Shown piece by piece: positions 3,624 through 37,672 of a stretch of DNA of 53,065 nucleotides. A program made the translations under genes and the position numbers. The notes under the pieces were generated by a model that worked only from the letters and a program-made list of their open reading frames with translations, was not told where the DNA came from and made no database searches. Source of the DNA: a virus; the IMG/VR virus record IMGVR_UViG_3300031999_000029, positions 1 to 53,065 of that record; one strand, given 5' to 3'. How positions within the stretch are numbered: position 1 is the stretch's first letter; the number at the start of each line of letters is the position of its first letter.

Positions 3624-4062
3624 AACACACTGTAAGCATAGCAATATCAAGGGCTTGTCCTGATCTTGTCTGATAAGACCTATTATGTAAACTCTTAGAG
3701 ATTTCGCAACGATTACGCACGCTTGCGAAAGCGTATGCGACATTTCATTACCTGAACAAAATGAGCGCGCGCCTTGCGCGAGGGTGGGGCGCACGCTCAC
3801 GCGCGAGACGCGCGAGAGGTCGCAGCCTGAACCCCCCGGCACCCCCCGGCGCGGCGAGGGCGAGGACTACCTACCCCGACTCGCGCGCTCGCGCGGGTGA
3901 CGCAAAGCGTATTGACAAAAACCCTACAGTATGAATCGGCACGCCTCCCCGCGTCAAAAATTTGTACGCGCGCCGTGTGAATGTGTGTTGACATTAACCT
4001 CACGGTTTGAGACACTGACCGTGAGGGAAACGAACCGCGCCCGAGGGCGCACGGAGGAGACC
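3624..4062. other. Gene-free region: A+T-rich block, GC palindromic block, promoter/operator-like sequences
   Basis: About 440 bases with no convincing gene. 3624-3720 is AT-richer than the surroundings. ACGCTT and AAGCGT (3719-3724 / 3729-3734) form a small perfect hairpin. 3755-3905 is very GC-rich, with many CGCG runs and a CCCCCCGGC direct repeat. TTGACA occurs at 3912 and 3988. It could hold a packaging site, a replication origin or a promoter region; the sequence does not decide. No tRNA is seen. Confidence 0.55.
3988..4026 (+). promoter_or_regulatory. TTGACA element with overlapping 9-bp perfect inverted repeat (operator-like)
   Basis: TTGACA (3988-3993) is followed by CCTCACGGT (3998-4006) and its exact reverse complement ACCGTGAGG (4018-4026), with an 11-base spacer. 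The -10 at 17-bp spacing would be GACACT, a poor match. A -35-like hexamer next to a dyad is the layout of a repressed promoter. It lies directly before the 214-bp cassette that begins the next gene. Confidence 0.4.
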
Positions 4063-4241
4063 GTGGTATTCATTCGAACGCACGAACAGGCGAAACAAAT
4101 TTTGGCCGACGAGCATATTGTGGATCCAATATGGCTCGGAGATGTAGACGATCCGGACCGTCTCGGTTGTTACCTAGACGAGCACATCGAGTGGTTGCGG
4201 ACAGAGGACGAACCGGAGCTGCGGACGTGGGCCAGGAGCGT
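4028..4241 (+). repeat. 214-bp direct repeat, copy 1 (portable SD + start + 60-codon cassette)
   Basis: This segment matches 21974-22187 base for base except for two substitutions (A/G in the codon for residue 16 and A/C in the codon for residue 48; both change the amino acid). There are no indels. It holds a 35-base leader with GGAGGA, a GTG start and 59 full codons. Similarity stops abruptly at both ends, so a defined segment was copied. No terminal inverted repeats were found. Confidence 0.9.
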
Positions 4242-4458
4242 ACGTGATGATCTCAACGGGACGGGCGGTGACCCCATGACTACCCATAAAGCGGCGAAAG
4301 GGCCCGAGAGGATTTTTTGCGGCGGCACCTTCGACAACACACCGGGGAAGGTTGCGGTGCGGTGTCGTCGGTGTGGCCGGGTCTGCTACGAGAAAAACGA
4401 GGGAGACATTTGCTACGCTCCGGCGGCGAACGCACCGGAGGTGAAGGCGATCCCATGA
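4063..4458 (+). CDS. Chimeric protein: repeat-encoded N-terminal module + C-terminal zinc ribbon
   Basis: 131 residues from GTG, with GGAGGA upstream. Residues 1-60 (MVFIRTHEQAKQIL... to ARSV) come from the 214-bp repeat and reappear in the protein at 22009. After a short linker (RDDLNGTGGDP) an internal Met (codon at 4276) opens what looks like a self-sufficient zinc-ribbon protein with cysteines in FCGG, VRCRRCGRVC and DICYA. I infer that the module was grafted onto an older small gene. The module itself is acidic with many Asp/Glu and Trp; I do not recognise it. Stop overlaps the next ATG. Confidence 0.65.
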   Translation: MVFIRTHEQAKQILADEHIVDPIWLGDVDDPDRLGCYLDEHIEWLRTEDEPELRTWARSVRDDLNGTGGDPMTTHKAAKGPERIFCGGTFDNTPGKVAVRCRRCGRVCYEKNEGDICYAPAANAPEVKAIP

Positions 4459-5121: not shown

Positions 5122-5909
5122 CCGCAACCGCTGCGCAACAATCCTTTCCCTTTCCCACCCGCAACCGACGCGAGTGGCAGGTCGCCGTCCGCGCCGCCGC
5201 TCTCGGCGACCTCGACGCCAAAACCTACGTCGACGACGTGCGCTACGCGTTCAAGCATTACGTCGAGACCGCCCCAGGCACTCTCGGCAACAAGCTCACC
5301 AGCAATCGGTTGCGGGAGTTTTCGCTTTTCGATCGAGCGCAGCGTCACCTGGAGCACAAGCAAAACCGTTTCCGGCTCGCCTCCGAAGCCGCCGCCCGCT
5401 CGGCCGATGTGTGGCACTCCAAACCGCGCTCTATCGGCATCGTCGAACGCCTCGCCGCCGTGCGAGAAGACATCGCATTCGAGTTGTCCGACGCCTTTGT
5501 GCGATGTCGCTACCGCCGCCCGAGCGACAAGTGGGTCGGCGGCAAGTTCGATTTCCAGGTCGAGATCCGCTCGAAGCTGCCGCCGACGGTGAAGGTATTT
5601 TCACAGCGAGGGTGGCACAAAAATCGTCGTTGGACGGGACAGAACGTGCGCGTGACCGCGTCCGTTGGCCTGGACTACCGCAAGATCCCCGGCGAGCTGC
5701 GCGTCGTCGACGGCCTTCTCGTGCTCCGGGTTCGATCGATCGGTCCCGAGACGTGGTCGGCTGTCGTCGCCGAACAGGGTCGCGGGCTCGACATCGTCTG
5801 CCGCGAGTGCGTCTTGCTCCGGAGCGGCGGGGAGATTTTCAAAGCGAAGACGCTTCGGGCTGCACGAATTCGAGCGAAAGCACAAGACAGGGAACGAGGG
5901 CAGCCATGA
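5118..5909 (+). CDS. Hypothetical protein (GTG start)
   Basis: 263 residues beginning MTATAAQQSFPFPTRNRREW. The N-terminal half is helical (AAALGDLDAKTYVDDVRYAF); the C-terminal half is beta-rich (VRVTASVGLDYRKIPGELRVVDGLLVLRV-like pattern, residues about 185-220). Two cysteines lie in DIVCRECVLL. No family recognised. Overlaps both neighbours by four bases. Confidence 0.62.
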   Translation: MTATAAQQSFPFPTRNRREWQVAVRAAALGDLDAKTYVDDVRYAFKHYVETAPGTLGNKLTSNRLREFSLFDRAQRHLEHKQNRFRLASEAAARSADVWHSKPRSIGIVERLAAVREDIAFELSDAFVRCRYRRPSDKWVGGKFDFQVEIRSKLPPTVKVFSQRGWHKNRRWTGQNVRVTASVGLDYRKIPGELRVVDGLLVLRVRSIGPETWSAVVAEQGRGLDIVCRECVLLRSGGEIFKAKTLRAARIRAKAQDRERGQP

Positions 5910-6349: not shown

Positions 6350-7801
6350 ATGAGTTGCTTGTCGCAGACGGACGAGGATCGCGTTCGCGCCGCCGATCTC
6401 CTACACCTGGGTTTGGCGCAAAAATCCGCTAGCGCGTTCATGAGCTACGTGCTGCGCGACGAGAAGACGAACGAGCGGATCAAGCAAGCCCCGATTCACC
6501 AGGCGTGGCAGGCGTTGATCAATCAACACCGCCGCTTGCTCATATGGTCGTCGGTGGAGAGCGGGAAAAGTTCGCAAGTGAGCGTCGGTCGCACGCTCTT
6601 CGAGCTTGGCCGGAATACCGGTCTCCGTTGTTGCATCGTCTCGAACACGCAAGGTCAGGCCGGCAAGATCGGCGGAATGATCGCGAAGTACATCGAGGGG
6701 TCGGTCGACTTGCACGAGGTGTTCCCCGATCTGTTGCCCGACGAGCCGTGGACGAGTAGTCAGCTATTCGTGAAGCGGCAGACGATGGCGAAAGATCCGT
6801 CGGTGCAGGTGTGCGGCATTCACGGCAACATTACCGGATCGCGTCTCGACGTGCTCATCCTCGACGACGTGCTCGACTACGAAAACTGTCGTACGCCCGG
6901 GTTGCGGCAGGACTTGTGGGACTGGTACCACGCGACGCTGTCGGGGCGTCTGACGGCGGACGCTCGGGTGATCGTGATCGGCACCGCCTATCATCCCGAG
7001 GATTTTTTGCACCGCCTCGCGCGCACCGGAGGGTGGGCGGCGTTTCGGTACCCGGTGATCGATCCGGACACGAACGAGATCCGTTGGCCCGAGCGTTGGC
7101 CGGAATCACGCATCGAAGCCAAGCGCATCGAGCTTGGCCCTCTCGAATTCGCGCGACAGATGATGTGCGTCGCCAGAGACGACGCCGAAGCGCGGTTCAA
7201 GAAGGAATGGATCGATCTATGCCTGGCGCGCGGCGCCGACCGCGAGCCGCGCCCGAGCCTCGAAGCCGTGCCGCCGGGTTGCCGCACAATTACCGGAGTA
7301 GACTTGGCGGTGTCGCGCAAGAAGATTTCGGGCGACACCATTTTCTTCACGATCTTGGTGTACCCGAACGGGGACCGCGAATTGTTGTGGATCGATGGCG
7401 GGAAGTACAGCGGGCCCGAGATCGTCGACAAGTTGGTCGACACGCACCGACGATTCGGATCGGTGATGTACGTGGAGAACAACGCGGCGCAAGAATACAT
7501 CCTGCAATTCGCGCGCAGTGAGAGTGCGGTGACGGTGCAGCCGTTCACGACGGGGCGCAACAAGGCCAACCCGGAATTCGGCATCGAGTCTCTCGCCGTC
7601 GAGATGGCGAATGGCAAGTGGATCATCCCGTGCAAAGATGGCCATATTCACAAACAAGTGTCGATGTGGATCCAAGAGATGCTCTACTACTCGCCGGCGG
7701 CGCACACGGGCGACCGTCTCATGGCTTCGTGGTTTGCCCGCGAGGGTGTCGGCCGCGCCAAAAAGAGAGCGTGGGTCGGAAGGATAAACAACGCTCGCTA
7801 G
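6350..7801 (+). CDS. terL: Terminase large subunit (packaging ATPase-nuclease)
   Basis: 483 residues, a normal length. It drives DNA into the prohead and cuts the concatemer. ATPase domain: Walker A-like SSVESGKSS (residues 67-75, catalytic GKS at 72-74) and Walker B VLILDDVLD (168-176) with two Asp. Nuclease domain (RNase H fold): D318 in GVDLAV, E376 in YVENNAAQE and D455 in HTGDRLMA are in the right order for the three metal-binding acids. The Walker A has Ser-Val-Glu where many terminases have an Arg/Lys, a mild oddity. The ATG follows a 37-base gap without a strong SD. Confidence 0.93.
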   Translation: MSCLSQTDEDRVRAADLLHLGLAQKSASAFMSYVLRDEKTNERIKQAPIHQAWQALINQHRRLLIWSSVESGKSSQVSVGRTLFELGRNTGLRCCIVSNTQGQAGKIGGMIAKYIEGSVDLHEVFPDLLPDEPWTSSQLFVKRQTMAKDPSVQVCGIHGNITGSRLDVLILDDVLDYENCRTPGLRQDLWDWYHATLSGRLTADARVIVIGTAYHPEDFLHRLARTGGWAAFRYPVIDPDTNEIRWPERWPESRIEAKRIELGPLEFARQMMCVARDDAEARFKKEWIDLCLARGADREPRPSLEAVPPGCRTITGVDLAVSRKKISGDTIFFTILVYPNGDRELLWIDGGKYSGPEIVDKLVDTHRRFGSVMYVENNAAQEYILQFARSESAVTVQPFTTGRNKANPEFGIESLAVEMANGKWIIPCKDGHIHKQVSMWIQEMLYYSPAAHTGDRLMASWFAREGVGRAKKRAWVGRINNAR

Positions 7802-8589: not shown

Positions 8590-10344
8590 ATGAGTAGCGC
8601 AACGAGAGTAGAACCACGCGGCGTCAAGCGCATGCTGAGTGCTCTTGCCGACAAGCTCTACAAGAGCGGCGGCGCCAAGCAAACGGAGACGATTGCGAGC
8701 GCGATGCAGAAGATCGCGCGCCTCGGCATGAGCCCGAGGCAGCAAATGCTCAATCGTTTGTGGGCATGGTATCGCTGCGAGAACTACGCCACGCGGCGCG
8801 TGGATTGGAACGGGCACGAAGTCGTCGACGCGCTTTCTCAGGAGTCGATTTCGACCGCCGGCTTCATCCCTCCGGGGTTCTACGACGCCGGAGCCAACCT
8901 GCCGATCAAGTTCCGCAAGCCGACGGCGCCGTACGCGTTGGTCAAGGTGATCGTCGACCGCTTCACCGAGTTGCTTTTCAGCGAGCGCCATCACCCGTTC
9001 ATGCGAGTCGAGGGTGATTCCGATACGGAGAACTACGTCGGAGCGCTCATCGAGGCGTCGCGGCTGTGGCCGAACATGATTCAGGCGCGGCAGTACGGCG
9101 GCGCCATGGGCACGGTCGCCATCGGGTTCGAATTCGTCGAGGGTGTGCCCGAGGTCGAGGTGCACGATCCACGCTGGTGCATTCCGGACTTCAAGGATCG
9201 CACCAAGCTGATCCTGAATTCGATCGAGAAGCGGTATATGTACGTCGTCGAACAGCGCGACGAAGTCACTGGCGAGTACGAAGAGATCGCCATGTGGTAC
9301 CGGCGCGTGATCGACACGGAGCGCGACGTTCTCTTCAAGCCCGCCCCCGTGGGCGACGGCAACGAGCCGCAGTGGGAGGTCGACAAGGAGACCGTGCACG
9401 GGTTCGGATTCTGCCCCGTGGTGTGGATCCAAAATCTGCCGGTGCAGGACGACATCGACGGCGACTCGGACGTTCTCGGCATCTATGACACTGCCGAATC
9501 GATCGATTCGTTGCAGTCGCAGGCGAACCTCGGCACGATTAGCAACTGCGATCCGACGCTCGTGGTCGTGACCGAAGACGAAATGCCCGAGATCAAGAAG
9601 GGCAGCGACAACGCGATCAAGTTGTCGAAGGGTGACGCACACTACATGGAGTTGCAGGGCTCCGGCGCCAAGTCTGCGATCGAGTTGGCCGACAAGTTCC
9701 GAAGCCAAGCGCTCGAAGTGGCGCAATGCGTGCTCGAACATCCGGACATGAGCCAGCGCACCGCGACCGAGATCGAACGCGCGTACTCTTCCATGATCTC
9801 GAAGGCGGACGTTCTTCGAGAGCAATACGGCGAGAAGGGACTGAAGCCGCTCATCATGATGATGATCAAGGCTGTTCGCCTCTTGCAAGAGGGGAAGATC
9901 AACGCCGAAGAGGGAGTCATCGAGAAGTTCGAGATCCTGTTGCCGCCGAGAGTGGTCGACGACGAAAACGGCGAGACGAAAACGGAGCCGCAGAAGCTCG
10001 GGCCCGGCGGCGTCTTCAAGTTGCAATGGCCGAAATACTTCGAGCCGCTTCTCGCCGACGTCGAGCTGGCGACGCGGTCGGCGGTCGCCGCGAGCGCCGG
10101 CGGTCTCGTCGATTTGGAGCACGCGATCAAGTTCGTGGCCGAATACTTCAAGGTCGGCGACGTCGACGCTATGATCAAGCGCATCAAATCCGAGCAACAG
10201 AAGGCGAGCGGGGCGACGGCCGATCAGACGTTGCAGATGCTCGGCGGCGGTTCGATGCCTGGCAGACCGATGCCGGGCCGCCAGACGTTCGGCAGACCAA
10301 TGCCGGGACGCCCGATGTCGAGCCCGTACGATTCCGAAGAGTGA
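8590..10344 (+). CDS. Portal protein
   Basis: 584 residues. Twelve copies of a portal form the ring through which DNA enters and to which the tail joins. Evidence: position right after terminase; length; the N-terminal part with LKVIVDRF-like helices around residues 115-135 (VKVIVDRFTELLFSE); a central beta-rich region (EFVEGVPEVEVHDPRW); a helical stem region around 365-430. The C-terminus is low-complexity (MPGRPMPGRQTFGRPMPGRP), encoded by two 30-bp units at 10261-10290 and 10291-10320 that share 16 of their first 17 bases. GGCGGCGAAC precedes the ATG. Confidence 0.85.
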   Translation: MSSATRVEPRGVKRMLSALADKLYKSGGAKQTETIASAMQKIARLGMSPRQQMLNRLWAWYRCENYATRRVDWNGHEVVDALSQESISTAGFIPPGFYDAGANLPIKFRKPTAPYALVKVIVDRFTELLFSERHHPFMRVEGDSDTENYVGALIEASRLWPNMIQARQYGGAMGTVAIGFEFVEGVPEVEVHDPRWCIPDFKDRTKLILNSIEKRYMYVVEQRDEVTGEYEEIAMWYRRVIDTERDVLFKPAPVGDGNEPQWEVDKETVHGFGFCPVVWIQNLPVQDDIDGDSDVLGIYDTAESIDSLQSQANLGTISNCDPTLVVVTEDEMPEIKKGSDNAIKLSKGDAHYMELQGSGAKSAIELADKFRSQALEVAQCVLEHPDMSQRTATEIERAYSSMISKADVLREQYGEKGLKPLIMMMIKAVRLLQEGKINAEEGVIEKFEILLPPRVVDDENGETKTEPQKLGPGGVFKLQWPKYFEPLLADVELATRSAVAASAGGLVDLEHAIKFVAEYFKVGDVDAMIKRIKSEQQKASGATADQTLQMLGGGSMPGRPMPGRQTFGRPMPGRPMSSPYDSEE

Positions 10345-12693: not shown

Positions 12694-14142
12694 GTGGCCC
12701 GCGAAGACCTGATCCCCGTGAAGCGCGCCGTGACCCGAATGGGCACGTCGTACGAGCAGACCTATTGGGTGCGCGCTCGGGAGCTGCGCGAGACGTTCGA
12801 GAAGAGCGGCGCGACGGCGGCGTTGAATCGAGCATTGGGGTCCACAACGGGGGAAGGATCGGAGCAGTGGTCGACCCGTTATCGTCAACGGCTACTAGAC
12901 AAATTGGTAGAGGCGGGGTTTTCTGCTGAAGTGGTCGCTACGTGGCCGCAAAGCCGCCGAGAGCAAACACTGACTCCAACGGAGTTGGCTTCGACGAAAG
13001 ACGCTTTGAGCAAGGAAATGTTGTCCGAGGCGTCTTCAGGAACGAAAACCGCCAAGACTATGCTCGACGATTGGGTTTCGTCTCCCGGCGAAGAGCGGAC
13101 GGCGAAGCTCCGCTCTCTCGCCACGACGATCGCATTCGAGGATCTCGACGGTGAAGAGTGGGACAAAGCCGTGCAGCAAGAGCGCGATCTCTTGGCCGAG
13201 AACGCGACGCACCACTACGACAAGCACTATATGTCTTCGTCGATTGCGGAGTATCGAGGCCAGTTCAAGCGCGAGGCGTACGCCGACATGCGCGACGAGG
13301 TGATGAAAACTCTCGCCGACGAATCGGTGAGTGAAGACGAAGACGTGGCAGAGAACGCCAAGGAGATTTTCGAGCTTCGTCGAAGCACGAGTCCCGAGCT
13401 GCGCAAGCAAGCCAACGACATGATCAACGAGCGCGTCTCGTACGAGCTGGAGACGCAAGGGAAGACCGAAGATGCGAAGTTGAAGGCGGACGAAGCCGCC
13501 GAAGCCGACCGCGACGAGTACGTGAAGCGCGTCGACAACGAATTCATGCGCTACACGGACGAGGACATTGAAGCCGTGTACGCTCTCGCGGCGGTGTCGC
13601 AGTCTCTCTACGACGAAGACACGGTCACGCTCTATCGCGGCATCAAAGGCGAGTACGCGAAAGACATTCGAGAGGCGGCGATCGACGCCGTAGCCAAGAG
13701 CGGCGCTCTAGATCAAGCGGAGCTGTTCCCCAAAGACACCCCTCTTCCGGTTGCCTACGAGGAGAATTTGGTCAAAGTCGAAACAGGAGTGATGTGCTCG
13801 TTTTCTGAAGACGTGAACAAGGCCAGGGGATTTACGGGCGACGACGGCGTTGTGATGAAAATGACGGTGCCGAAGTCGTCGATCTTGGCGTCGTATCGTC
13901 TTGGGTCGGAGGTCATGCACCAAGGCGAGAAAGAGGTCATTGTGCTGACGAAGGGGGAGTTTCAGATCAACCCTAATGACATCGAAGATGCCAAGGCGAA
14001 AGACTCTGCCTCTCCATTTCAACCCATGTTCGAAGAGGGGCATTGGCGGCAAATCGCTCGTGGTCGTGGACAAGATTTGTCCGGCCCGTTGCCGCCGCGA
14101 GAGGAAGAGTACCAAGAATCAGAGGGCGAGTGGGCCCCGTAA
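12694..14142 (+). CDS. ADP-ribosyltransferase effector (R-S-E class) with N-terminal YWVR tag
   Basis: 482 residues from GTG. The C-terminal domain (about 290-430) has the full R-S-E signature of arginine-type ADP-ribosyltransferases: R315 in TLYRGI, S369/S371 in MCSFSED, and the E-x-E pair E412/E414 in HQGEKEVIV. Such enzymes transfer ADP-ribose from NAD to a target protein; T4 packages relatives (Alt) in its head. The N-terminus carries VKRAVTRMGTSYEQTYWVR (residues 9-27), echoed in the metalloprotease gene at 14952. A charged helical region (30-285) joins the two. I infer a virion-carried effector; target unknown. Confidence 0.8.
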   Translation: MAREDLIPVKRAVTRMGTSYEQTYWVRARELRETFEKSGATAALNRALGSTTGEGSEQWSTRYRQRLLDKLVEAGFSAEVVATWPQSRREQTLTPTELASTKDALSKEMLSEASSGTKTAKTMLDDWVSSPGEERTAKLRSLATTIAFEDLDGEEWDKAVQQERDLLAENATHHYDKHYMSSSIAEYRGQFKREAYADMRDEVMKTLADESVSEDEDVAENAKEIFELRRSTSPELRKQANDMINERVSYELETQGKTEDAKLKADEAAEADRDEYVKRVDNEFMRYTDEDIEAVYALAAVSQSLYDEDTVTLYRGIKGEYAKDIREAAIDAVAKSGALDQAELFPKDTPLPVAYEENLVKVETGVMCSFSEDVNKARGFTGDDGVVMKMTVPKSSILASYRLGSEVMHQGEKEVIVLTKGEFQINPNDIEDAKAKDSASPFQPMFEEGHWRQIARGRGQDLSGPLPPREEEYQESEGEWAP

Positions 14143-21078: not shown

Positions 21079-21228
21079 GTGGCGCGCAGCTACTACGTGG
21101 GCCCGACAGGGCAGCACATCTACATGAAAAGCAACCCCGGTCCGGTAGTCGTCGGGCACATGCGCAATCAAATCTTCCGCCAAGGGTTGCCGATGTCGGC
21201 ACACTTGGCGGAACCGAAACGACGATAG
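21079..21228 (+). CDS. Small YYVGPTG...KSNPGP peptide (GTG start)
   Basis: 49 residues, two bases after the previous stop. The sequence SYYVGPTGQHIYMKSNPGP, GHMRNQIF and QGLPMSAHL is mirrored by residues 85-125 of the protein at 22009, so the two are paralogues. The core resembles the 'RGGRYYVS..G..VYVK' motif that I associate with the ends of phage head-associated proteins. Probably a virion-associated small protein. Confidence 0.6.
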   Translation: MARSYYVGPTGQHIYMKSNPGPVVVGHMRNQIFRQGLPMSAHLAEPKRR

Positions 21229-21263: not shown

Positions 21264-21497
21264 ATGGCACACTCTTATGGAAACACGGGAATGCCGGTCG
21301 ATACTCCGATTCTGATCCGGCCCGGCGTCACGCACAAAGAAAGCGACTTTCACGGCAACGGCAAGCACTACGCGTTGCCGCCCGAGCACCCCGAGCGATC
21401 CGCCAAGGGCGATCTCGGGTTGAGTGTGATCCCGGGGCTGGAGACGAAGCCGACCGACCATCCCGGCTTGCCGTTTGAATTGAAGCCGAAGGTGTGA
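21264..21497 (+). CDS. Small hypothetical protein
   Basis: 77 residues with MAHSYGNTGMPVDTPILIRP and ending LPFELKPKV. Pro/His/Gly-rich and probably extended. The end resembles the PKPF-x-V-S-K ends of the small proteins at 22402 and 22643. Function unknown; context suggests a virion component. Confidence 0.55.
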   Translation: MAHSYGNTGMPVDTPILIRPGVTHKESDFHGNGKHYALPPEHPERSAKGDLGLSVIPGLETKPTDHPGLPFELKPKV

Positions 21498-21499
21498 CC

Positions 21500-22093
21500 A
21501 TGAAAGATCCTCACAGCGGTGACCCGATGTGGCACACTCGATCTGCCGAGTGGAGAGGGGCGCAGCGCCGTGCAGAGGACACGGCAAAGCAGTTGCGTAG
21601 GCAGATCGAACCCAAACTCAAAGGGATGGGGCCAGAAAAGCGGCGCGAAATGGAAGGGCTGATTCGATCTGTGGAAGCTGCGCCGCGCGGTGTGCAAGTC
21701 GAGTTGCTGCCGGTAACTCCGACCCCGATGGATACGCCGGAAGCGTTTGTTTCGAGAGTGTTCAAGGAAACGGAACAAGACACGATCGCAAAAGCTGCCG
21801 AGCACGCTGACAAGGGCGAGATGTCTTCGAGCGCGAAGCTCGCGCTGTCTGACGCGCGCAAGCTGTCTGCAAAGGGGGATCACGCGAACGCTATGAATAG
21901 GGCGCGCGATTCTCTCAAGTATTCTGTCGGTGTGCTGCATCCCGACTATCAGAAAGCCGACGCGCTAGCGAGAAAACGAACCGCGCCCGAGGGCGCACGG
22001 AGGAGACCGTGGTATTCATTCGAACGCACGAACAGGCGAAACAAATTTTGGCCGGCGAGCATATTGTGGATCCAATATGGCTCGGAGATGTAG
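21500..22093 (+). CDS. Helical protein whose C-terminus is read from the 214-bp insert
   Basis: 197 residues. Residues 1-158 are a normal-looking helical, charged protein (AEWRGAQRRAEDTAKQLRRQ and similar). From codon 159 (base 21974) the frame enters the 214-bp repeat, so the last 39 residues (RKRTAPEGARRRPW... to GSEM) are read from repeat DNA in a frame different from the repeat's own. This looks like a gene truncated by the insertion. The following gene overlaps it by 85 bases. Function unknown. Confidence 0.55.
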   Translation: MKDPHSGDPMWHTRSAEWRGAQRRAEDTAKQLRRQIEPKLKGMGPEKRREMEGLIRSVEAAPRGVQVELLPVTPTPMDTPEAFVSRVFKETEQDTIAKAAEHADKGEMSSSAKLALSDARKLSAKGDHANAMNRARDSLKYSVGVLHPDYQKADALARKRTAPEGARRRPWYSFERTNRRNKFWPASILWIQYGSEM

Positions 22094-22187
22094 ACGATCC
22101 GGACCGTCTCGGTTGTTACCTAGACGAGCACATCGAGTGGTTGCGGACAGCGGACGAACCGGAGCTGCGGACGTGGGCCAGGAGCGT
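21974..22187 (+). repeat. 214-bp direct repeat, copy 2
   Basis: 212 of 214 bases equal to 4028-4241 with no gaps. Here the cassette supplies the SD (GGAGGA), GTG start and first 60 codons of the 22009 gene, and cuts into the 3' end of the 21500 gene. No duplicated target site is obvious. Since 214 is not a multiple of three, simple excision would not restore one frame across the junction. Confidence 0.9.
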
Positions 22188-22392
22188 CGGAAGCGGCGCA
22201 CGAGATTCTGCGGCACAACAAAAGTCGATCGAAACCGGCACCCGTGGCGGTCGCTACTACGTCAGCGCGACCGGCGCCAAGGTCTACGTGAAAAGCAATC
22301 CCGGTCCCATTCACCTCGGCCACATGCAGAACCAAACCTTTTACCAGGGGCTTCCGATGTCGGCGCACCTGAATGAGCCGCGCAGAAAGTAG
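22009..22392 (+). CDS. Chimeric protein: repeat-encoded module + RGGRYYVS...KSNPGP domain
   Basis: 127 residues from GTG with GGAGGA upstream. Residues 1-60 equal those of the 4063 protein except D16G and E48A. After GSGARDSAAQQKSIETGT comes RGGRYYVSATGAKVYVKSNPGP, GHMQNQTF and QGLPMSAHLNEP, the paralogue of the whole 21079 protein. Without the module, the remaining part could have been a small protein of its own or the end of the 21500 protein. Probably virion-associated; the module's role is unknown. Confidence 0.65.
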   Translation: MVFIRTHEQAKQILAGEHIVDPIWLGDVDDPDRLGCYLDEHIEWLRTADEPELRTWARSVGSGARDSAAQQKSIETGTRGGRYYVSATGAKVYVKSNPGPIHLGHMQNQTFYQGLPMSAHLNEPRRK

Positions 22393-25168: not shown

Positions 25169-26572
25169 ATGCCTGATTTTTCAACGATTTTGATGGCTCC
25201 GGACATCCGAGCGCTCACTCAAGAAAACATTCTGGAGCGCGCCTTTCACGACGCACTCTATCCACGGAACCTGTTCCGTGGTGAGGCCATGCCGCAACTG
25301 TGGCCCAACAACGTCGGCGACACGATGGTGTTCACCGGCACCGGTCTTCTGAAGACGAAGCAGAAGGCGCTCGTGCCCGGCACCGATCCGACCCCGAGTC
25401 AGTTCCAGTATGAGCAGTGGACGGCTCAGTTGCAGCAATACGCGGACGCGATCGACACGCACATGCCGTCGAGCATCACCGCGATCGCTTCGCTGTTTCT
25501 CCGCAACGCGCAGCAACTCGGCCTCGGCGCCGCGCAGACGCTCAACCGCATCTCGCGCAACAAGATGTACAACGCGGCTCTCTCCGGCTCGACCGTCGCG
25601 GACGGCGGCCCGCAGAGCGGCACGACCCTTCGGGTCAAGCGGCTGAACGGCTTCACCCGCGCCCGCCGGCCGGATCTTCCGCTCGGCAGTGCGGTGCGTT
25701 TCGACACCGTGTCGCCGAACAACAAGTTGGCGATCCGGGTGTTCGACAACGGCGCTGACGCGGCGTTCAACGTGATCGGCTTCTCGGCCGACACCGCCGG
25801 CGACGAGGCGGGCCCCGGCACCTTGACTCTGGAATCCGCGATGACGGCAGTGGCCGCTCGCGCCTATGTGGTCGCAAACGACCGCACCGTTCTGGTGCGT
25901 GTCGGCGGCGGCCTCAAGGTCGACGATGTCGGCTCCGGTGACAAGTTCACCCTGGCGGACATCCGATCGGCAGTGGCGCGGCTCTGGTCGCAGAACGTGC
26001 CGGAGCAAGCCGACGGTCGCTTCCACTGTCACATCGATCCGATCAGCCAGGCTCAGATTTTCGCCGACGATCAGTTCGCTCGGCTGCTGACCTCGTTGCC
26101 GGATTTTTTCATGTACCGGCAATTCGCCATCGGTGAGCTGCTCGGCACCGTGTTTTTCCGCAACTCCGAGTGCCCCGGCCCGGACACCGTCGAAGGCGGT
26201 CTCACGGCGTCGTACTCGCAGGACGATCCGTTCGCCGGCGAGCTTTACAACGACGGCACCACGAGCGGCGTGAAGATTCATCGTCCGCTGTTCGTCGCGC
26301 AAGGTCTACTCATGGAATACTACCAGGATCTTTCCGGCCTCATCACCGAGGCGGGGATCACGGGTGCCGTGGGCGAGCCCAAGGTGACGAACAACGGCAT
26401 CGAGATTTACAGCGATCGGATCCAGCTCATCATCCGTTCGCCGCTCAACCGGTTGCAGGACATGGTCAGTACCGCGTGGAAGTTCATCGGTGACTGGCCC
26501 ATCCGAACCGACAGCGTGACGGGCGACGCCGCCAGGATCAAGCGCGCTCTGATCGTCGAGCACGGAGAGTAG
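25169..26572 (+). CDS. Major capsid protein
   Basis: 467 residues after a scaffold gene and behind GTAGGAGAT. The order scaffold - this gene - connectors fixes the call. The sequence is mixed alpha/beta, with a long helical segment (SSITAIASLFLRNAQQLGLG, about 100-119) compatible with an HK97-fold spine helix and a C-terminal region VSTAWKFIGDWPIRTD. I do not recognise a named family, and no cleavage site is evident. It forms the icosahedral shell. Confidence 0.8.
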   Translation: MPDFSTILMAPDIRALTQENILERAFHDALYPRNLFRGEAMPQLWPNNVGDTMVFTGTGLLKTKQKALVPGTDPTPSQFQYEQWTAQLQQYADAIDTHMPSSITAIASLFLRNAQQLGLGAAQTLNRISRNKMYNAALSGSTVADGGPQSGTTLRVKRLNGFTRARRPDLPLGSAVRFDTVSPNNKLAIRVFDNGADAAFNVIGFSADTAGDEAGPGTLTLESAMTAVAARAYVVANDRTVLVRVGGGLKVDDVGSGDKFTLADIRSAVARLWSQNVPEQADGRFHCHIDPISQAQIFADDQFARLLTSLPDFFMYRQFAIGELLGTVFFRNSECPGPDTVEGGLTASYSQDDPFAGELYNDGTTSGVKIHRPLFVAQGLLMEYYQDLSGLITEAGITGAVGEPKVTNNGIEIYSDRIQLIIRSPLNRLQDMVSTAWKFIGDWPIRTDSVTGDAARIKRALIVEHGE

Positions 26573-29685: not shown

Positions 29686-31698
29686 GTGGCTGGTTTCATT
29701 CGTCGCTTTCAGTCGTTCCCCGGTGTGGAAGTCATCACAGCAATCGAGGGTGTAGTGATCGTCGATCTTCCGCCTCCCGGCAGCATCAACGGTGTCGGCG
29801 TCGGCACGGTCGCCATCGTTGGTGAGTTTGCGGACATGACGTTCGCAACGTCTGTCGACTCCGTCGGCGTCGTTTCCACCAATCCGATCCCCGTCGAGGT
29901 TTTGACCGGGCAGGACATGCTCAACAAGGTGGGCGGCTTCGACTCCACGATCGGCGACACCGGTATCTCGGGCGGCAACGGCTTCATCGCGCTGCGCAAC
30001 AAGAAGTTTTCGCGGCTCGTCTTGGTGCCGATCAATCTGGCCTCCCCTCTCGGCGTGCGGCTCGCGCGATTCTTGCCGACGAACAAGGGTTCGACCAATC
30101 CGACCCCGGCGGTGCCGATCGCGGCTGCGACGGTGGCGGCGGGGCGCGAATTCAAATCGTCAACCAACCGCGCGCGTCTCGGCGCTCGCGTGGTCTTCAC
30201 GGACGCCGGCCACTACAAGCAAGGCGTCGACGGCGCCGTGACCGTGGCGGGCTCTCCCGCCGCGACGCAACTTTTCACCGCTGCCGGCGGCGCGTTCACT
30301 ACGGCGAAGAATGGCGGACCGGTTCAAGAGGGTGACATTCTGGTGGTCGGAGTCATCGGCGCGGCTGGTGCGCAAGGCAACAACGCCGGAGCCGGTTTGA
30401 ACTACGGCAATTTCAGAGTCGCCGCCGACGCAAGCTCGGCGACGCAACTCACTGTCGAGATGATCGACGGCATCAACTTCGATTGGGCGACGTCTGGCGG
30501 CAGCCTGGCGTGGCGCATTCATCCGTCCACCGACGCCGACACCGGCCTCAACCATCAGATGTCGGAAGCCGCTGGCTACACACTGCCGGCGCGGCCTCTC
30601 GATTCGACGATCGCCGCGAGCATCACTCTCGGCCCGACTCTCTCTCCACCCGTGCCGACCGCGTCGTCGTGGGATCCGCTGTCGGGCTTGCTCATGAAGA
30701 CGTCGCCGACGTCTCCCGGGCTGGCGTACGACGCCGATGTGCAGGCTCCGAATGCCGTGAGTCACGCGAAGCTCACGGCGCTCTATTCGACCGCGATTGA
30801 CGCGTTGCTGACCGACGATCTGCCGGCCCGCGATGTCAACATCGTGGTCGCGGCGAGACACAACTCGGACATCCGAACGAAGCTCAAGTCGCACGTGCTC
30901 ACCGCGAGCACGCAAGGCGTTGGCCGAGTGGCGGTTGTGTCGCCGGAGCTGACAACCCTATCGATCGATACGGTGGTCGGCGACAGCGATCCGGGCGTCG
31001 GGGCCAATCGCAACGAGCGCATTTTCTACGATTGGCCGGGCGCTCTCACCTTCATTCCGGAGGCGGTGGGCTTCAACATGAAGGGAGCCGACGGCAAGCT
31101 CTACGCCGACGGCAACGTCGACACGCATTTCGACGCGTGGATGGCGAGCATTTTGTCGGTGCTCGCTCCCGAGCGCAACCCCGGGCAAGCGGCGCCGCCG
31201 ATCCCCGAGATCCTCGCCCCCGTGAAGGGCGTGCAGCGCGGAGTGACCAAGTTGCAGATCGGCGACTACACGTTGCTTCGGCAGCGCGGAGTCGCGGCCT
31301 TGCGAATCGATCGCACGGTCGGGCCGATCATTCAATCCGGAATCACTTCGTCTCTCATTTCGGGCGAGAAGAACATCAATCGTCGGCGCATGGCGGACTT
31401 CCTCGAAGACTCCATGTCGCAACGGCTGGTGCAGTTCTCCAAGTTGCCGCTGACCCCGGCTCTCAAAGACACCATCGTCGGTGAAATGGATGCGTTTCTC
31501 GCGGGTCTGTTGTCGATTAACAACCCGCCGGCGCAGCGCATTGCCGGGTACATCATCGACGACAAGAGCGGTAACACGCCGGATCTCGAAGCCAAGGGCA
31601 TTTTCGTGGCGATTGCGAAAGTGCGCACGTTGGCGACGGCCGACTTCATTGTGCTCCAGGTGGAAGCGGGCGAGGGTGTGAACGTCACCGCGAAGTAG
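29686..31698 (+). CDS. Tail sheath protein (GTG start)
   Basis: 670 residues, a normal size for a large sheath. Starts MAGFIRRFQSFPGVEVI, the usual 'pgv.v' opening. The C-terminal third has the conserved sheath region: QIGDYTLLRQRGVAALRIDR, then KNINRRRMADFLEDSMSQRL (the 'nvRRl...i..sl' block) and a final beta domain LATADFIVLQVEAGEGVNV. An inserted beta-rich domain lies around 110-300. The sheath contracts to drive the tube into the cell. CTGTAGGAGG precedes the GTG; a 64-base gap lies upstream. Confidence 0.88.
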   Translation: MAGFIRRFQSFPGVEVITAIEGVVIVDLPPPGSINGVGVGTVAIVGEFADMTFATSVDSVGVVSTNPIPVEVLTGQDMLNKVGGFDSTIGDTGISGGNGFIALRNKKFSRLVLVPINLASPLGVRLARFLPTNKGSTNPTPAVPIAAATVAAGREFKSSTNRARLGARVVFTDAGHYKQGVDGAVTVAGSPAATQLFTAAGGAFTTAKNGGPVQEGDILVVGVIGAAGAQGNNAGAGLNYGNFRVAADASSATQLTVEMIDGINFDWATSGGSLAWRIHPSTDADTGLNHQMSEAAGYTLPARPLDSTIAASITLGPTLSPPVPTASSWDPLSGLLMKTSPTSPGLAYDADVQAPNAVSHAKLTALYSTAIDALLTDDLPARDVNIVVAARHNSDIRTKLKSHVLTASTQGVGRVAVVSPELTTLSIDTVVGDSDPGVGANRNERIFYDWPGALTFIPEAVGFNMKGADGKLYADGNVDTHFDAWMASILSVLAPERNPGQAAPPIPEILAPVKGVQRGVTKLQIGDYTLLRQRGVAALRIDRTVGPIIQSGITSSLISGEKNINRRRMADFLEDSMSQRLVQFSKLPLTPALKDTIVGEMDAFLAGLLSINNPPAQRIAGYIIDDKSGNTPDLEAKGIFVAIAKVRTLATADFIVLQVEAGEGVNVTAK

Positions 31699-32685: not shown

Positions 32686-32906
32686 TCCATTACGGGGCGT
32701 TCCTACTCGCCACGAGCCGACTCGGGAGCGTGGACGAACACATGCGCCGGATCTGGCGCCTCGTGGCCTTCCTCGGGAGGTATGGGCATCAGCCGGTTGA
32801 GGATTGTTTGCACATGACGTTTGCCGACCTGTGCAGTTTGGCTGAAGGCGTCAGTGAATTGCTTCGGGAAGAGAGCGACGCGATGAGGACAAACGCCAAT
32901 GGTTGA
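32652..32906 (+). CDS. Tail assembly chaperone, -1 frameshift extension
   Basis: The -1 frame runs open past the short chaperone stop to 32906 and encodes VHYGAFLLATSRLGSVDEHM... to TNANG, a helical domain typical of second chaperone parts. A possible slip point is the four-T run in GATTTTC (32650-32656), where a UUU codon can re-pair after slipping back one base; it is not a full X-XXY-YYZ site. The entry start marks that point. Separate initiation at GTG 32730 or ATG 32742 is the alternative. Overlaps the tape measure start by eight bases. Confidence 0.6.
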   Translation, partial: FSGESASSGGLVHYGAFLLATSRLGSVDEHMRRIWRLVAFLGRYGHQPVEDCLHMTFADLCSLAEGVSELLREESDAMRTNANG

Positions 32907-34740
32907 CGTTGTCAATAATGTCTCTACCCGATTTTCGGTTGTAGACCAAGCGTCGCAACCGCTCGCGGCGATGTCCGGAGCCGCCGGCCGCATTTCCGGC
33001 ATGTTTGATCGCGCTTCGTCCGTACTCGGTTCGTTCGGCGTGTTGGCCGGAGCCGCTGCCGGGGCGTTTTCCGCCGTTGGCGCCATTAAAGGCACGATCG
33101 GCTTTCTGGAGTCGGTAAAGAAAGTTCGTGACTTCACAGGCATGGCGGCGAAAGAAGCCGGGGGGTTGATCGACGTTCTCGGGGATGCCGGGATCACGGG
33201 GCAAGAAGCCGTGACGGCGATGAACCGTCTCGCCATGGCTGGCAATAAAGCGAAGATGGCTGCCACCGGTTTCGGTGGCGCAACGCGCGGGAATCTGAAT
33301 CTCTTTAAGCAGTTTGGTTTGGCGGGGAAGACGCCGCAGCAACAATTTATGCAGCTCGCAAAGTCGGCACAAGCCCACAAGTTGTCGATTCAACAGTTGC
33401 AACAGCTCTATCGACTGCCCCCCGAAAGCGCGAGAAAGCTCATTAACGTACTCAAAGAGGGCCCAGGCGAGATCAAAAAACAGATCGACGAGTTTGACAA
33501 GCTGGGGATTTCTACCGACGAGCACGTGAACAGCGTGGCTCGAATTCAGAAATTGCAACGGCAGATCGCGTCGGGGTGGGAAAAAATTCAACTCGTGTTG
33601 GTGACGGAGCTTCTCCCGTACATTGAAGACGCCATGGATTACGTGGTGAAGAGGCTGCCGGAGTGGATCGAGAAAGCCAGAGAGTACGGGAAGATGTTCG
33701 GCGACTTTTTGCGCGAGCACCTCGACCTCGTCAAAGCCATCGGCAAGGCGATGATGCTCAACTTTTTTCTCCAAAAAGCTACGGGTCAAGGGCTTGGCGC
33801 GTGGGGAGGAAAGGCGGGGGGTCTCGCCAAGCGCTTTCTTGGTCAAGCGGGTGGCGCGGCAATAGATCCGATGTCTGCTGGCAGATTGGGGCGGGGTGCT
33901 GCGGCATTAGGAAAAGGGGCACTAGCGACGCCACGAGCGATTGCCGGCGAGTTTACGTCTTTATTCGAGCGCATCGTAGCCCGGTTTTCAGGTGCGAAAG
34001 TGTTGTCGGGAGAGTCTTTGCCTTTTGTCAAAGCAACGCCGATATGGGCGCGCATCACCGCAGGTCTTGGTCGTGTGTGGCCGGGGCTGCTGCGCTTTAC
34101 GACGGCAGCGTTGCGACTGGCGGGACCATTGGCGCTGCTGATGCTCGTCATCACTATCATATGGAAAGCCGTCAGCTTGATTCGAAGTAACTACGAGGGC
34201 ATTCGCACGCATATGTCGCAGCTCATCGAAACCATCATGGCTCGGTTTTCTGTCATTGGCGACATGCTCAGTCCCATTTTCGATGTGTTTGGTGATGAGG
34301 GCATCATAGGCAAGTTCTTCACACAGACCGTTTTCGTCGTGATCATGGCTTTAGGGGATATGCTGGACGGGATCATGCACGTCATTCAGACGATTATCTA
34401 CATGTTCTCGCACTGGACCAAGCTCGTCACGCATCCGATTGAGACGATGAAGAAGGGATGGGCAGAGACAGCGCGCCTCACTGCCGAGAAGGAGCGCCTA
34501 GCCGGAATCAAGGCGGCTATGGATCTCGGGCTAGAGCGCAAGAAGAAGACGGATGACGCCACCGCCGAAAAGCCTCCGGAGAACCACATTGATTTCCGTG
34601 GCAGCAAGTTCGACATCACGCAAACCTTCGCCGAGGGTTTCGATCCCGATCGTATCGCCGTCGCTTTCTCGAACGACTTGGCCGCGCTTGCTGATAAAAA
34701 AATCGGCCAGGGGTTCAATCCGTTGTTTTCGGGAACGTGA
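32899..34740 (+). CDS. Tape measure protein
   Basis: 613 residues. Starts MVDVVNNVSTRFSVVDQASQ, the usual 'f.v.D.as.pl' opening of tape measures, followed by Ala/Gly-rich helices (ASSVLGSFGVLAGAAAGAFS, about 40-59). Long helical regions and hydrophobic segments follow (LAGPLALLMLVITIIWKAVS, about 412-431, and one around 475-505) that may insert in the host membrane. The family sets tail length; by the rule of about 0.15 nm per residue this suggests a tail near 90 nm. The last 60 residues contain a compact end FDITQTFAEGFDPDRI. Confidence 0.82.
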   Translation: MVDVVNNVSTRFSVVDQASQPLAAMSGAAGRISGMFDRASSVLGSFGVLAGAAAGAFSAVGAIKGTIGFLESVKKVRDFTGMAAKEAGGLIDVLGDAGITGQEAVTAMNRLAMAGNKAKMAATGFGGATRGNLNLFKQFGLAGKTPQQQFMQLAKSAQAHKLSIQQLQQLYRLPPESARKLINVLKEGPGEIKKQIDEFDKLGISTDEHVNSVARIQKLQRQIASGWEKIQLVLVTELLPYIEDAMDYVVKRLPEWIEKAREYGKMFGDFLREHLDLVKAIGKAMMLNFFLQKATGQGLGAWGGKAGGLAKRFLGQAGGAAIDPMSAGRLGRGAAALGKGALATPRAIAGEFTSLFERIVARFSGAKVLSGESLPFVKATPIWARITAGLGRVWPGLLRFTTAALRLAGPLALLMLVITIIWKAVSLIRSNYEGIRTHMSQLIETIMARFSVIGDMLSPIFDVFGDEGIIGKFFTQTVFVVIMALGDMLDGIMHVIQTIIYMFSHWTKLVTHPIETMKKGWAETARLTAEKERLAGIKAAMDLGLERKKKTDDATAEKPPENHIDFRGSKFDITQTFAEGFDPDRIAVAFSNDLAALADKKIGQGFNPLFSGT

Positions 34741-35869: not shown

Positions 35870-37672
35870 GTGCCGAGCCCGATTTCCGTTGCGTCTGTCT
35901 ACTACCCGAGTCTCGTGGTCAACTGCCAGATCCGCTTCGACAGCAAGCTCACGATCGCCCAACCGATTTCTGCGGACGAGCTGGCAGACAAAACCGGAGA
36001 CACGGAGCCCTCGTCGGTGCCACAGCCTCTCATTCTCTCGAAGTCTGGCAAAGACGACATGAGCGTCGTGGTCGGGCTCGTGCCGGTATCCGCCTCCGTC
36101 GAGATCCCCGGATACCGCAACGCCGGGTCGTTCGAGCTGGAATTTCTGTTTCGAGACTTCCCGATTGATCCGCGTGCAGTTCGAGCGATCGGCGTGGCAA
36201 TTCACCTCGACGCCGTGCCGGCTCTCGAATGGTCTTTTGGCATGACGGGGCACACCAGTCTCGGGCGCCGACGATCGATTGCTCAAACGACCGTCGACAA
36301 TCTGCTCTTAGCCGGTGTAGTCGACGACATTGTGACTGAGTACAACGACAGCGGCAGTCGCGTGAAGCTGTCGGGGCGCGACTTGCGCGGGATCCTGGCC
36401 GATACGAGCGCGACTGAGAAAACACTGAAGCAAATCGATCTGCGCGAGCCGCTAGACAAAGTGATCAAGCGGCTCGTGAACGAGCTGCACCCTCTCGGCA
36501 AGGGCATTCAAGTCGAGATCGATCCAAGCGAATGGCCGGATAAAAAGGTGCCGACCCCCTATGTCGAAGGGGATCTCACCCGTCCAAATTTCGACGCCGC
36601 CGGCCCTACAAAGCAGACGTCAAAGAAAAGCTCCGGCTCGAAAACCCCCTCTAAAACGAAAGGAGAGGCTGGGCGGATCAATTTTTGGGATCTAATCGTT
36701 CAGTGGTGTTTTTTGTGTGGCGCCGTGCCATATTTTGTTGGTTCAAATCTTCGGCTCCGGCCAACCCTCAATCTCTACGATCAACGCCGTCTCGACAAGG
36801 CTTTCGATCCTCGCTTCCCGACTCCGTTTTCAGGGGGTCACCCGAGAGACTTGGATCCGCCAACGGTGAAAGAATCGGAAACATTCGGATACCGGCGACT
36901 CGTTTTCGGTCGAGACATTGCCTCGTTGAAGTTCGATCGCAAAATTGGTGGCGTCAAGGTGCCTGTAATCGAGGTCAGTTCGATCGATACGGACAACACT
37001 ACAAAGGGGGTGAAGCAGAGATGGATCAAGGCGCAATACCCATCCGAAGAGGAAATCGAAGCCCGAGCCACGACCGTCGGCCCTAGCGGGGAAGCTGCCG
37101 AAACCTCTGTTTTGAGAGTGGCATACCCCGGTTGCAAAAATCAGGATCAGCTCTTGAGAGTCGCCAAGTCTCTACACGCCGAAATCGGGCGCCAGGAAAT
37201 CGGCGGCTCGTGCGAGACGAAGAACCTGGCGAGCTTCGGAGGCTCGAACCAAGATGCCGACATGCTCAAGATTCGACCTGGCGATCCCGTCGAGATCCGC
37301 ATGGATGGCTCAGGTCTCGGGACGTACCCGCCGATTATTTCGGAGCTGAACCAGCACTCGGCGCGGAGCTTCGAGGAAGAGGTCAAAGAGGTGGCGGCGA
37401 GACTCGGTGACGAGCATTTGGCCCGCGTGCTCGTCTCCACCAATCGGAAGATGATCACGGAGTTGCAACAGACGTTCCGCGTGGCCAACGTCCGATTCAC
37501 GTGGGATTCGAAATCGGGAGCCAAAGTCGAGTTCGATTTCCAGAACTACGTTGAAGCCCGTTTCACTGATCCAGACGACATGCCCGCACTGGTTCCGATT
37601 CCTCCGGCGTCGGTTCCGATTCCTCCGGCGTTGGTTCCGATTCCTCCGGCGTTGGTTCCGATTCCAGAGTGA
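35870..37672 (+). CDS. Baseplate hub protein, gpD/gp27-like (GTG start)
   Basis: 600 residues. Order (after LysM protein, before spike) and beta-barrel segments such as GSFELEFLFRDFPIDPRAVR, GVVDDIVTEYNDSGSRVKLSGRD and ILKIRPGDPVEI-like strands support a hub. A Lys/Ser/Thr-rich linker (about 245-265) splits it into two parts. The C-terminus is a repeat of PIPPALV units encoded by a 21-bp tandem repeat. Hub proteins form the trimer under the tube on which the spike sits. GTG is chosen as the first start after the LysM stop. Confidence 0.68.
   Translation: MPSPISVASVYYPSLVVNCQIRFDSKLTIAQPISADELADKTGDTEPSSVPQPLILSKSGKDDMSVVVGLVPVSASVEIPGYRNAGSFELEFLFRDFPIDPRAVRAIGVAIHLDAVPALEWSFGMTGHTSLGRRRSIAQTTVDNLLLAGVVDDIVTEYNDSGSRVKLSGRDLRGILADTSATEKTLKQIDLREPLDKVIKRLVNELHPLGKGIQVEIDPSEWPDKKVPTPYVEGDLTRPNFDAAGPTKQTSKKSSGSKTPSKTKGEAGRINFWDLIVQWCFLCGAVPYFVGSNLRLRPTLNLYDQRRLDKAFDPRFPTPFSGGHPRDLDPPTVKESETFGYRRLVFGRDIASLKFDRKIGGVKVPVIEVSSIDTDNTTKGVKQRWIKAQYPSEEEIEARATTVGPSGEAAETSVLRVAYPGCKNQDQLLRVAKSLHAEIGRQEIGGSCETKNLASFGGSNQDADMLKIRPGDPVEIRMDGSGLGTYPPIISELNQHSARSFEEEVKEVAARLGDEHLARVLVSTNRKMITELQQTFRVANVRFTWDSKSGAKVEFDFQNYVEARFTDPDDMPALVPIPPASVPIPPALVPIPPALVPIPE
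37591..37670 (+). repeat. 21-bp tandem repeat at the 3' end of the hub gene
   Basis: About 3.8 copies of GGTTCCGATTCCTCCGGCGT plus one base, starting at 37591, 37612, 37633 and 37654 (the last incomplete). The unit is seven codons, so copy changes keep the frame; it encodes VPIPPA[LS]. Near-perfect copies suggest recent expansion. Confidence 0.9.

Follow-up and report, generated by a model that had tools for sequence, protein, structure and literature searches.

A near-identical 214-nt gene start at two sites in a contractile-tailed phage genome: probable partial-gene duplication into a head-region gene

The stretch of DNA analysed here, hereafter the window, comprises one linear virus record of 53,065 bp, derived from a bacterial virus that is represented by metagenomic sequence. 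Its gene content indicates a contractile-tailed phage, and genes for terminase, portal, major head protein, sheath and tape measure are located along its length (Table 1). Near the left end of the contig, positions 142-582 gave a strong match (PF25185, E 1e-29) to Tad3, which inhibits the type I Thoeris defence system, and the accessory genes neighbouring this match may be anti-defence genes as well. A literature search in a limited collection returned nothing on Tad3 with Thoeris. Between the genes for the portal and the major head protein, a 482-aa protein is encoded at 12694-14142, of which residues 360-425 match the dinitrogenase reductase ADP-ribosyltransferase family (PF07357) below the threshold. 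Tandem repeats of 21 bp, of the GGTTCCGATTCCTCCGGCGTT type, are present at 37583-37665, close to the end of a 633-aa open reading frame.

Two copies of a 214-nt cassette were identified in the window. The first is situated in the accessory region that holds the Tad3 gene, and the 1-6 kb interval around it shows little conservation among relatives. Copy 1 starts within the 5' untranslated region (UTR) of ORF1, straight after the 3998-4026 palindrome; this palindrome occurs once in the window and is missing at copy 2. Because this 9-bp palindrome precedes it and its 5' region has a native appearance, copy 1 itself looks native, and its site appears to be where the sequence originated. No accessory-region relatives able to test copy 1 as the donor were found, nor were any relatives of the gene following ORF1 or of the copy 1 promoter region. 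A zinc-ribbon protein had been proposed behind copy 1; the C-terminus of ORF1 is zinc-ribbon-like, its match to L37e being weak and below the cut-off. Structure predictions for ORF1 and ORF2, the reading frame that starts in copy 2, were poor, with mean pLDDT values of 41 and 43, respectively.

The two copies form a direct repeat with 212 of 214 positions identical (99%) and no indels, and beyond its edges identity drops at once to background (10/60 on the left, 19/60 on the right). The sharp ends, the lack of indels and the two differences described in the original prediction were thus confirmed. A repeat search revealed no other long direct repeat in the window; a third copy of the cassette is absent from the record, where the next-best match is 14 nt. 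A chance origin of a 214-nt repeat is impossible. Each copy contains 35 nt of 5' UTR with an SD sequence, a GTG start and 60 codons, the final codon being short by one base. This composition agrees with the earlier description, as judged from the reading frames and from the motif GGAGGAG, which is found upstream of GTG in both ORF1 and ORF2. Codon statistics prefer the GTG frame in both copies, with a weak margin over one minus-strand frame. In the GTG frame, the first difference (4109 A versus 22055 G) gives Asp16 in copy 1 and Gly in copy 2, and the second (4205 A versus 22151 C) gives Glu48 and Ala, respectively. Both differences change amino acids, as originally noted, and hence give no indication of constraint.

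Copy 2 lies inside another coding region, in the head-gene cluster. On its left, coding sequence extends without a stop up to the cassette edge (21494-21973), and it begins again on the right (22189-22392), so that 160 and 67 codons flank the cassette in the window. By codon statistics, the final 80 codons of the 21494 frame, up to 21973, are coding, as is the frame that begins at 22189. The 21494 frame enters the cassette out of register and meets a stop at 22093. No relatives of this upstream half were found.

Table 1. Features of the window and of related contigs
Feature	Position	Strand	Remarks
Perfect 9-bp inverted repeat CCTCACGGT-N11-ACCGTGAGG	3998..4026	+	Operator-like; TTGACA just ahead
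Cassette copy 1, probable donor	4028..4241	+	5' UTR with SD, GTG, 60 codons; native-looking upstream region
ORF1, 131 aa, GTG start	4063..4458	+	Acidic, predicted helical 60-aa head and zinc-ribbon-like C-terminus
Terminase	6350-7801		
Portal	8590-10344		
Possible stand-alone 49-aa tail paralogue VARSYYVGPTGQHIYMKSNPGP...EPKRR	21079..21228	+	SD-like GGAAG upstream
Gene preceding the interrupted gene	21264..21497	+	73% identical to L004 counterpart
Upstream half of interrupted gene	21494..22093	+	Native coding to 21973 (160 codons), then 39 cassette codons in another frame; stop inside cassette
Cassette copy 2, probable inserted copy	21974..22187	+	212/214 identical to copy 1
ORF2, 127 aa, GTG start	22009..22392	+	60 cassette-encoded aa fused in frame to tail piece
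Tail piece GSGARDSAAQQKSIETGTRGGRYYVSATGAKVYVKSNPGP...EPRRK	22189..22392	+	L004 conservation 71%; PBCV_basic_adap-like tag
Major head protein	25169-26572		
Sheath	29686-31698		
Tape measure	32899-34740		
Tag loci in L004	3738-4259, 4536-5180		
Tag loci in L008	4246-6150, 6151-6459		
Tag locus in L033	4614-5861		
Tag loci in L047	7650-8636, 9204-10133, 10795-11952		

In contig L004 (IMGVR 3300031746_000007), the syntenic slot is occupied by one uninterrupted 214-aa gene, and no cassette is present in the record. Synteny is fixed by the similarity of the preceding gene (Table 1), and the L004 gene ends in a conserved tail matching that of ORF2. In L004, this tail gene is directly followed (5181-5663) by a gene that by eye resembles an HNH/endonuclease VII-type nuclease and that is not at this place in the window. 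Since coding halves flank the cassette and the slot is uninterrupted in L004, copy 2 is read as an insertion that split one gene. Thus, the earlier claim that one start region precedes different C-termini holds insofar as two unrelated C-terminal sequences follow the copies, but the copy 2 slot is most likely an interrupted gene. The N-terminal halves of the window and L004 genes align no better than shuffled sequences, 81 of 1000 of which scored at least as well, and the case for a single-gene ancestor is therefore built on position, length and tail.

Excision of exactly 214 bp leaves the two halves out of frame. This implies either that 3n+2 target bases were lost or that the slot formerly contained two genes, one starting at 21494 and a tail gene like that at 21079, with the cassette replacing the first stop and the second start. 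A former pair of genes would fit the failure of the N-terminal halves to align with L004, and a stand-alone tail paralogue may exist nearby at 21079-21228. However, it requires that a stop and a start were both lost at the insertion point, and in both L004 and L008 the tail or tag is fused to a longer protein; we therefore regard it as unlikely, if the strongest of the alternatives. An imprecise junction in a single gene is consistent with the out-of-frame halves.

A second contig, G001 (IMGVR_UViG_3300035701_004971), is 98.4-99% identical to the window over 9.7 kb. It begins 22 bp inside the 3' end of the cassette and runs on into the tail, and so contains the right junction of copy 2. The occurrence of this junction in a second, diverged strain argues against misassembly, and true repeats are known to cause contig breaks in assembly such as the one within the repeat here. 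The original prediction had raised an assembly artefact as an alternative. In that case, the assembler would have added one copy, for example by joining strain variants. The contig is metagenomic, the repeat is slightly longer than a short read, and three of the four junctions (both ends of copy 1 and the left end of copy 2) are represented by the contig of the window alone; L042 and L051, two near-identical contigs, span just 6.9-15.7 kb. Against this, G001, at about 1% divergence, includes the right-hand junction of copy 2 and is itself broken within the cassette, and in the syntenic slot the cassette is flanked by an interrupted coding frame and the tail. An artefact is accordingly improbable. 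Divergence is 0.9% between the two copies and a similar 1-1.6% or so between the strains, and the insertion therefore predates the split of the strains.

The cassette had also been proposed to be a portable, swappable N-terminal module. In such a scheme, one start module (SD, start codon and a 60-residue helical head) would be moved by phages among genes, giving them a targeting or regulatory head; here, as an exchangeable N-terminal part, it would drive and target two unrelated proteins, encoded in the accessory region and in the head-gene cluster, respectively. Its occurrence in two contexts within one genome, in frame and with an SD and a start each time, is compatible with such a module. 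However, a search for other phages carrying it with different C-termini recovered no further gene with this head. No relatives of the cassette were found as DNA or protein in the phage collection, nor as protein or exact DNA in the viral-contig collection beyond the 22 bp of G001 at the copy 2 junction, nor in the genome-contig collection except L026, although these collections may omit very close records. The match in L026 is a short one (PELRTWAR) and was judged to be due to chance, as was a match in Bdellovibrio phage phi1402, since it is antisense to an annotated gene. With no further context for the cassette, the proposal of a swappable module is unsupported. In addition, the right edge of the cassette appears to fall within a helix predicted, at low confidence, for ORF1 residues 51-64, and so would not resemble a domain boundary.

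Nor were signals of mobility found. Neither a mobility gene nor a target-site duplication was identified at copy 2. Terminal repeats were sought as inverted repeats of at least 8 nt with arms at most 60 nt apart in 21900-22300, and of at least 40 nt over the whole window, and none was present. The flanks of copy 2, GCTAGCGAGA and CGGAAGCGGC, have by eye no adjacent direct repeat in common, and the frames fit a loss of 3n+2 bases at copy 2 rather than a gain, which does not match a target-site duplication. A search of the cassette ends for recombination signals, as had been suggested, gave no short repeats marking the inserted copy (21900-22300). Taken with the lack of a third context, a portable start module is very improbable, slightly more so than an artefact of assembly.

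The least credible alternative is a diversity-generating retroelement (DGR) pair, with copy 1 as the template and copy 2 as the variable repeat. Each of the two differences has an A in copy 1 and another base in copy 2, although two sites are too few to show adenine-specific substitution, and the window resembles a DGR in having two short, near-identical repeats. Unlike a DGR, it combines a repeat at the N-terminus of the target with almost no variation (2 of 55 adenines differ), and no RVT_1 match was obtained in six frames of the record, which may be incomplete. The lack of a reverse transcriptase in the record and the N-terminal position both argue against this interpretation, and it was rejected.

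We consider that the locus is probably the product of a single, fairly recent intragenomic partial-gene duplication, by illegitimate recombination or template switching, in which one gene was split and a hybrid was made. In this proposal, a 214-bp segment of the 4063-4458 gene, comprising the 5' UTR with its SD, GTG and 60 codons, would have been copied from copy 1 to copy 2, most likely by illegitimate (non-homologous) recombination. It would have landed in a head-region gene at about 21974, some 18 kb away, and divided that gene in two, with a small number of target bases lost. The N-terminal half would now read into the cassette in another frame and end at 22093, and the SD and GTG of the cassette would drive translation of the C-terminal tail as part of a 127-aa hybrid. 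Lacking these signals, the tail would be left with no obvious start. The odds of an in-frame fusion are one in three, and selection for the fusion is therefore not required. The rearrangement is real and probably a one-off, of an ordinary type in a neat form.

The ORF2 tail contains the motif QTGxRGGxYYVxxxGxKVYV. The same motif is present on unrelated phage proteins: L004, L008 and L047 each encode two that have it at the C-terminus or close to it, and L033 and L047 each encode one that has it near the N-terminus (Table 1). The part that truly recurs on different phage proteins is this tail, and not the cassette. The only Pfam family to match was PF08789 (PBCV-specific basic adaptor domain), which was recovered for six of seven tags at 13.3-19.8 bits, all below the gathering cut-off of 20.4 bits. 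A profile search of solved structures with the tail tag gave just 9-10-residue matches to repeat proteins, which were judged to be due to chance. In the chlorella virus PBCV-1, the virion proteins A278L and A282L carry the PF08789 domain and co-purify with DNA (PMC3281028). The phage tag shares with this family a G-x-RGG-x-YY...G-x-K-x-Y core, a short length and its occurrence on different proteins, whereas its scores stay under the cut-off (best 19.8) and the partners in PBCV-1 are protein kinases. The phage tag may have a common role in the virion or in association with DNA, which is offered as a lead and not as a result.

The locus would provide a clean, young example of the birth of a hybrid gene in a phage, in which a stray gene start breaks another gene and simultaneously provides the signals by which its severed end stays expressed; it also directs attention to the ORF2 tail as the element shared by different phage proteins. 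From the mosaic evolution of tailed phages, partial gene duplications fused through illegitimate recombination are known. A literature search in a limited collection returned nothing on the combination of partial gene duplication and illegitimate recombination in phages. As in such fusions, the event in the window has sharp intragenic junctions, an imprecise frame and a new hybrid frame, with no mobility gene. Unlike them, its donor and recipient lie in one genome, and the fragment brings its own SD and start, so that the severed 3' part stays translatable.
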